Assembly: GCA_009602725.1 (NCBI GenBank)
Contig: WELB01000189.1
Coordinates: 39,072 to 84,082 of the forward strand
Direction of reading: 5' to 3'
Origin: Spirogloea muscicola
Taxonomy: Eukaryota; Streptophyta; Zygnematophyceae; Spirogloeales; Spirogloeaceae
Length of the DNA stretch: 45,011 nucleotides
Of this stretch, positions 15,720-32,555 are shown piece by piece (position 1 is the stretch's first letter; each line of letters opens with the position of its first letter). A program made the translations under genes and the position numbers. Below the pieces are notes generated by a model. The model had not been told where the DNA came from. It did no database searches and was given only the letters and a program-made list of their open reading frames with translations.

Positions 15720-16642
15720 TCACGCCTCCTGGGACGACTCCCGCTTGAGGGCCGGCGGTGGCGGCTGCGCTAGGACCTGGGCGCCGCCGTCGGCCCCGGC
15801 TTCCCGGACCAGGTCCCCTATGCTCCGCTCCAGCTCGTCAATCCTCGTGCCCATCTCGTCAAGTGCGAGCGGGCCAATGGAGTTAAGGAGAATGAAGCAC
15901 CCCGAGTTGCTGGGGAGGGCACAGGCAGGCTCGCTGGGGAGCTACGTGAGGACTTGCCAAAGTGGACCGCAGCCCGAAGCGGCGACGACTCTGATGCAAA
16001 CTCCACAGGAGCACTGCGGATCTGCATCAAGTTGATTGGCAGTCGAGCGCGAATGCGTGGCACTTGAGCCTACAAGAATGCTGGGTGGCAGCCCGACCAA
16101 ATGCAGCGAGGAGGATATTTCTCGTGATAATGGAGTCGGACATGTTCTGGAACCGCGCTTGCTGCAGGCATCCAGCGACGAGTCAGGCAGTGCGAGAGCT
16201 GCACCGCAACGGCGGCCGCCGGCAGTCGTCGGGCCGGCCAGGCTTTGTGGGTCCAGGCTTCTGTCAAAGGAAAATTAGTGGGCAACGGTCTCGGTCAGAG
16301 GCACCGAGGCAGCACGGGTGGGACTTGGCGAGCTCACCATCTGCTGCAGCAGGTTCTGGACCTGCGGGCCACAACGGAAAGCCATTACGGCAGCAGCAAG
16401 TGAGGCCTCTGGCAGCTCTCCTGAACCCTAAACCCTTAATCCCTAAGCCCTAAGCCCTAAGCCATAAACCCTTATATCTAAGTCCCGTGGGCGGGCGGTG
16501 TCGGCCAGAGCCCCCGCCGGAGCGCTGCGGGCGACTATCTCCGACCAGAGGCGGCGGGCAGTGCGGCGGCGCTCACAAAGGCGGTGAGCTCCGCTGCGCT
16601 CTGCGGCGCGGCCGCCGCCGCCGCGGGGTCGCCGCCGCCGCC
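15720..16642 (-). CDS. HSBP: Heat shock factor binding protein (HSBP), 5' end in gap
   Basis: A small coiled-coil protein that binds trimeric heat-shock transcription factors and attenuates the response. Visible exons in transcript order: 16642-16577 (PQSAAELTAF, continuing into the gap), 16361-16338 (VQNLLQQM), 16161-16119 ([14 protein letters not shown]), 15862-15720 ([17 protein letters not shown], ending KRESSQEA). Joined, the core reads [40 protein letters not shown], which follows the plant HSBP consensus almost residue by residue. About 91 residues are visible; the initiator Met is presumably inside the N gap. Introns 1 and 2 are GT-AG. Intron 3 (16118-15863) starts AT and ends AC with U12-type signals. 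The gene is head-to-head with the coiled-coil gene at 17362. Confidence 0.93.
15863..16118 (-). other. U12-type AT-AC intron in HSBP
   Basis: A 256-nt intron on the minus strand. The donor is ATATCCTC (16118-16111), 7 of 8 bases of the minor-spliceosome consensus ATATCCTT. The branch-point segment TCCTTAACTC (about 15889-15880) matches the U12 consensus, with its adenosine ~20 nt before the terminal AC (15864-15863). Joining 16119 to 15862 rebuilds an ATT codon and restores the conserved ITRIDEM sequence. No GT-AG alternative restores the frame. Confidence 0.88.
16423..16475 (+). repeat. Degenerate telomere-like array in HSBP intron 1
   Basis: CCCTAAACCC, CCCTAAGCCCTAAG and CATAAACCC units. 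The array lies within HSBP intron 1 (16576-16362), about 100 nt from its donor. In the transcript sense it reads as the G-rich strand (TTTAGGG). Confidence 0.85.
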
Positions 16643-16643
16643 G

Positions 16644-17289
16644 NNNNNNNNNNNNNNNNNNNNNNNNNNNNNNNNNNNNNNNNNNNNNNNNNNNNNNNNN
16701 NNNNNNNNNNNNNNNNNNNNNNNNNNNNNNNNNNNNNNNNNNNNNNNNNNNNNNNNNNNNNNNNNNNNNNNNNNNNNNNNNNNNNNNNNNNNNNNNNNNN
16801 NNNNNNNNNNNNNNNNNNNNNNNNNNNNNNNNNNNNNNNNNNNNNNNNNNNNNNNNNNNNNNNNNNNNNNNNNNNNNNNNNNNNNNNNNNNNNNNNNNNN
16901 NNNNNNNNNNNNNNNNNNNNNNNNNNNNNNNNNNNNNNNNNNNNNNNNNNNNNNNNNNNNNNNNNNNNNNNNNNNNNNNNNNNNNNNNNNNNNNNNNNNN
17001 NNNNNNNNNNNNNNNNNNNNNNNNNNNNNNNNNNNNNNNNNNNNNNNNNNNNNNNNNNNNNNNNNNNNNNNNNNNNNNNNNNNNNNNNNNNNNNNNNNNN
17101 NNNNNNNNNNNNNNNNNNNNNNNNNNNNNNNNNNNNNNNNNNNNNNNNNNNNNNNNNNNNNNNNNNNNNNNNNNNNNNNNNNNNNNNNNNNNNNNNNNNN
17201 NNNNNNNNNNNNNNNNNNNNNNNNNNNNNNNNNNNNNNNNNNNNNNNNNNNNNNNNNNNNNNNNNNNNNNNNNNNNNNNNNNNNNNNNN
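16644..17289. other. Assembly gap (646 N) over a divergent promoter
   Basis: A run of N flanked by very GC-rich sequence. It hides the HSBP first-exon start and most of the region shared with the divergent gene starting at 17362. Confidence 0.99.

Positions 17290-27719: not shown

Positions 27720-32555
<4,836 letters not shown>

Follow-up and report, generated by a model that had tools for sequence, protein, structure and literature searches.

Green algae are listed as lacking U12 splicing (PMC2846911), whereas minor introns have been reported from the streptophyte algae Chara and Klebsormidium (PMC10639083). The first-pass annotation of the DNA described here stated that the U11/U12 system has been lost in many algal lineages; this fits the former source, and the minor introns of Chara and Klebsormidium in the latter narrow it. 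HSBP, the gene examined below, does not appear as a term in the main text of PMC10639083, and a literature search found no paper combining U12, minor introns and Chlorophyta.

The window, i.e., the whole stretch of 45,011 nucleotides of Spirogloea muscicola DNA that was analysed, carries HSBP, a small gene related to the heat-shock response, with an AT-AC intron. The position of this alga was checked with PsbO, built from four exons on contig C222, where the single copy found is located. PsbO shares 73-77% identity with four land-plant chains and 59-67% with three chlorophyte chains (the species labels of the compared chains being those that we presume), and an unrooted tree of eight sequences places it with the land plants, on their side of a branch with 100/100 support. 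On the PsbO sequence, S. muscicola groups with streptophytes and not with chlorophytes; given this placement and the minor introns of Chara and Klebsormidium, a minor spliceosome is expected in this alga rather than surprising.

The HSBP gene and its third intron

The HSBP gene lies on the minus strand, with three introns in its visible part; an assembly gap covers its 5' end, and the start codon is probably located in or near the run of N at 16644-17289. The 3' part of exon 1 (16577..16607, encoding ..PQSAAELTAF) is followed by intron 1 (16362..16576), exon 2 (16338..16361, VQNLLQQM) and intron 2 (16162..16337), both introns having ordinary U2-type termini (GTGAGC...GCAG). Exon 3 (16119..16161) contains 14 residues and the first base of I, and it is separated from exon 4 (15720..15862, stop codon TGA) by intron 3 (15863..16118), a putative U12-type AT-AC intron of 256 nt in phase 1, whose 5' end reads ATATCCTCCTC and whose 3' end reads CTCCTTAACTCCATTGGCCCGCTCGCAC. 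The 5' splice site of this intron is ATATCCTC (16111..16118), its U12 branch element is CTCCTTAAC (15882..15890, with TCCTTAAC at 15889-15882), and its AC acceptor is located at 15863..15864.

Joining 16119 to 15862 restores the conserved ITRIDEM sequence in the reading frame, just as had been proposed. The joined protein matches the Pfam HSBP1 profile (PF06825) with 94 bits (cut-off 28.6) over positions 2-51 of 51, and its alignment with human HSBP1 (3ci9; E 1.7e-11) is free of gaps. When introns 1 and 2 are taken out and intron 3 is kept, the HSBP1 match has 47.7 bits and stops at profile position 28, retention of intron 3 shifting the frame (256 = 3x85+1).

A search of the genome assembly (153 Mb, 471 contigs) disclosed three HSBP copies, on contigs C189 (the window), C29 and C135, sharing the same visible exon-intron structure and the GTGAG...GCAG termini of intron 1. 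Their visible exons remain in an open frame, exons 1-3 being free of indels and exon 4 having a single one of 3 nt; identity between copies amounts to 95-100% for exon 3, 93-94% for exon 4 and 87-93% for introns 1 and 2. The body of intron 3 (256 nt in the window, 260 and 246 nt in the other copies) is 84-90% identical in pairwise comparisons, with indels of 3, 4, 7, 10 and 14 nt. The first eleven bases of the intron are nevertheless the same in all three copies, including the donor (consensus RTATCCTY) with C at +8, and the AC end is kept in the two copies outside the window. Near the 3' end, all copies have a branch element close to TTCCTTRAC; the window reads CTCCTTAAC and the other two copies CTCCTTGAC, an A/G difference permitted by the U12 consensus. 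The branch-to-acceptor distance of U12-type introns can reach up to about 20 nt. In the three HSBP copies, 19 nt separate the end of the branch element, i.e., the C of AAC, from the AC end, and 20 nt are counted from the second branch A. The donor, branch segment and spacing of about 20 nt agree with the first-pass annotation; the distance, identical in all copies, exceeds the range of 10-15 given in PMC2426677.

The three copies of the gene also show other features. Intron 1 harbors degenerate TTTAGGG/CTTAGGG telomere-like repeats (about 16415-16480 of the window, minus strand), which are present in the other two copies as well, with details differing among copies. In the copy on C29, a long poly-A run (near 701-771 of locus L012) adjoins the place matching the run of N in the window and is perhaps a gap-filling artefact. 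Elsewhere in the window, methionyl-tRNA synthetase exons (PF09334) are located at 29907-31250 (minus strand); an Rfam scan of the whole window gave no match, and a tRNA scan of the whole window found none.

The possible joins between exons 3 and 4 were scanned with donors over 180 positions and with acceptors as far as base 329, counted from where exon 3 begins. Fifty-seven joins stay in frame and reach the C terminus (6 GT-AG, 33 GC-AG and 18 AT-AC), a number rising to 4249 joins if every dinucleotide pair is counted. Just one of the 57, the AT-AC join of intron 3, yields the HSBP1 domain without gap or insertion, each of the remaining in-frame joins cutting from or adding to the coiled coil. 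Hence, the earlier statement that the frame can be joined only from AT to AC holds for a gap-free HSBP domain and not for the open frame as such, since other joins exist that damage the coiled coil. This bears on the idea that the U2 spliceosome might remove the intron, either as one of the rare U2-type AT-AC introns or by means of a GT-AG or GC-AG pair giving rise to an altered HSBP. AT-AC termini are not sufficient to assign an intron to the U12 class (PMC3584512), and the six GT-AG and 33 GC-AG joins do continue in frame to the stop codon; however, none of these 39 joins restores the HSBP coiled coil, and they were rejected because all of them damage it. Moreover, both the branch element and positions +1 to +8 of the donor conform to the U12 class, and they persist in three copies amid differing surroundings; removal by the U2 spliceosome appears very improbable.

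It might also be imagined that the HSBP copy is decaying and that its U12 signals are the relic of an intron no longer spliced, as one of three copies could be in decay and the assembly gap conceals the 5' end of the gene; but the visible parts of all three copies keep both an open frame and intact signals, and we regard this as slightly less probable still than the action of the U2 spliceosome. When the window was searched for RTATCC[TA][ACT] followed within 600 nt by TCCTTRAC and then by AC or AG, the single occurrence was intron 3 of HSBP; 100 first-order Markov simulations had a mean of 0.05 occurrences and a maximum of 1. Intron 3 is very probably a genuine U12-type (minor-class) AT-AC spliceosomal intron, which would be removed by the minor spliceosome; this reading is supported by the elements kept in three diverged copies and by the U11, U12 and U6atac genes, the minor-spliceosome proteins and the other U12-type introns described below. 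We infer that U11 would pair with UCCU of the donor (+4 to +7) and U12 with CTCCTTRAC, that U6atac would then take the place of U11, and that the intron would be cut out from AT to AC, restoring R/I/DEM, the order of these events being taken from other species.

Minor-spliceosome genes and further U12-type introns

The genome contains loci scoring above the Rfam cut-off for U12 (three loci; best 42 of 1707 candidates scored), U11 (four loci; best 39 of 3632 candidates scored) and U6atac (three loci; best 46 of 5506 candidates scored). The cores of the copies are 98-100% (U12) and 95-98% (U6atac) identical, and the 150 nt upstream of them are 71-80% identical. The upstream regions have in common an ATCCCA element, and a clear TATATAA is found upstream of U12, the TATA-like stretches being weaker at U11 and U6atac; we take these to be plant-type snRNA promoter elements. 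Three of the U11 copies share their flanks, and the fourth (L007, on C439), which has neither the shared flank nor the upstream elements, is likely a retro-copy. AAAGGG is conserved in U11, which thereby retains its fit to the donors. As for U4atac, no Rfam match was obtained in the genome, the positive controls being likewise silent; a pattern based on the complement of U6atac had four matches, three of which are antisense U6atac and the fourth of which (L015) is without recognisable snRNA features.

A chimeric protein query searched against the genome revealed U11-35K exons on C3 and C2 (best PDB match 8r7n_C) and an RRM on C13 and C4, the best solved relatives of which are RBM41 and then RBM40/65K. 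From these matches, the RRM is of the RBM41/65K type and closer to RBM41 than to 65K; RBM41 has been reported as a minor-spliceosome protein (PMC11039992). Exons on C36, C132 and C19 are read as U1-70K. PF05253, the CHHC zinc finger of U11-48K, had no match in the genome, this 25-residue domain being one that an intron can split. A weak RRM match was also observed at C140:158738-158908, inside a reading frame given as open over 5846 codons.

Further U12-type introns were sought with three pattern searches, combining a donor (RTATCCTY in two of them, RTATCC in the third) with the branch YTCCTTAAC at limited spacing. The matches numbered 1, 4 and 18, against 6, 4 and 23 for the reversed-pattern control; since there is no excess over the reversed pattern, canonical U12-type introns are few in the spacings searched. 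The single match of the first RTATCCTY search (L018) and one of the four matches of the second (L019) were not accepted as introns. In the RTATCC search, 13 of the 18 matches were not accepted, among them the L019 site, the sites on C27, C28 and C349 (a common sequence without a supported join) and the ambiguous ones on C2, C108 and C141; the remaining ones had no convincing join. Inspection of the flanking sequences nevertheless disclosed a convincing U12-type GT-AG intron in three copies of the delta-COP gene (on C88, C79 and C124), with the donors GTATCCTT, GTATCCAC and GTATCCAT across the copies and a join that aligns without gaps to 5a1u_H. Two other U12-type introns are located in a KIF15-like kinesin (C142), the join being gap-free to 4bn2_A, and in a DEAD-box helicase (C214), where the Pfam DEAD domain spans the join; this helicase presumably resembles DDX31. 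From the branch element to the intron end there are 9 nt in delta-COP and 11 nt in both the kinesin and the helicase. Including HSBP, the accepted U12-type introns belong to four genes and eight loci.

The minor-spliceosome system that the first-pass annotation took to be implied by the intron finds support in the U11, U12 and U6atac genes, U11-35K, the RBM41/65K-type RRM and the further U12-type introns; among the components that it listed for a genome check, U11, U12, U6atac and U11-35K were found and U4atac was not.

A genome triplication has been stated for S. muscicola (PMC7994812). HSBP, U12, U6atac, delta-COP and the U11 genes with shared flanks occur in threes, whereas PsbO and the helicase (one copy each) and U11-35K and the RRM (two copies each) are at odds with a clean triplication. 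Since the intron and the snRNA genes are present in three copies, their comparison shows directly how far each signal is constrained.

The U6atac sequence and the variation of the donors

The U6atac loci (L008, L009 and L010, on C40, C294 and C69, respectively) match Rfam RF00619 with 83-86 bits over the full length and have the GAGAGAAGGUUAGCA core and a terminal U run. All of them read GUGUUCGUUGAGCCGAGAGAAGG in the place where the Rfam consensus reads GUGUUGUaUGAAAGGAGAGAAGG, so that nucleotides 12-14, within the box facing the 5' splice site, are GCC and not AAG; further differences from the consensus fall between nucleotides 6 and 9, outside the box. It is known that G14 and G15 of human U6atac pair with C6 and C5 of the 5' splice site, respectively (PMC4980772). 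In the human register, none of the six donor types pairs with the algal U6atac at +6 and +7, and the predicted duplexes are weaker for all six even if other registers are allowed (e.g., -3.2 versus -5.6 kcal/mol for the consensus with the HSBP donor, and -1.1 versus -5.1 kcal/mol with the delta-COP donor of C88).

The first 68 nucleotides of U6atac, including the GCC triplet, are identical in the three copies, despite a divergence of about 25-29% in the 150 nt upstream, which suggests that the altered form is under constraint; the presence of GCC in all three loci indicates that it was probably fixed before the loci separated. In a predicted fold, to which no weight is given, GAGCC (nucleotides 10-14) can pair with GGCUU (61-65) of the same molecule.

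Across the eight loci with U12-type introns, five have T and three have A at donor position +7, and four have C, three T and one A at position +8. This drift, together with the changed U6atac, may point to co-evolution, although the eight loci represent just four genes and positions +1 to +6 were fixed by the searches for the genes other than HSBP. It is possible, albeit tentatively so and with the balance slightly against it, that the minor spliceosome of this alga has been transformed, with U6atac not pairing at +6/+7, U11 and proteins choosing the 5' splice site, +7/+8 drifting and RTATCC being kept. If true, this would represent a natural test of the need for the helix between U6atac and the 5' splice site, and the change, if real and functional, bears on whether U6atac pairing is needed beyond +5. 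In transfected CHO cells, the CC5/6GG change of the 5' splice site in a P120 minigene needed compensating changes in U6atac, and changes in U11 were also needed for near-full activity (PMC4980772). The U6atac sequence, rather than the HSBP intron, deserves a second look.

Comparison with known systems

The HSBP intron is a further streptophyte-alga case of the known U12-type class. It represents a clear-cut AT-AC example from a streptophyte alga, extending what has been recorded of minor splicing between land plants and the other green algae, from which the system is reported to be absent (PMC2846911). Minor introns are likewise present in the streptophyte algae Chara braunii and Klebsormidium nitens, for which 166 and 110, respectively, are given (PMC10639083), compared with the four genes and eight loci recovered here by searches limited in spacing and motif. 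With the U12-type AT-AC introns of land plants and animals, the HSBP intron shares the ATATCC(T) donor, the TCCTTRAC element and the AC end, and the alga shares the U11, U12 and U6atac genes; the intron differs from them in its 20-nt spacing and in the C at donor +8. A further difference from the land-plant and animal systems concerns U6atac, the alga having GCC in place of the AAG of RF00619 at nucleotides 12-14 in all three loci.
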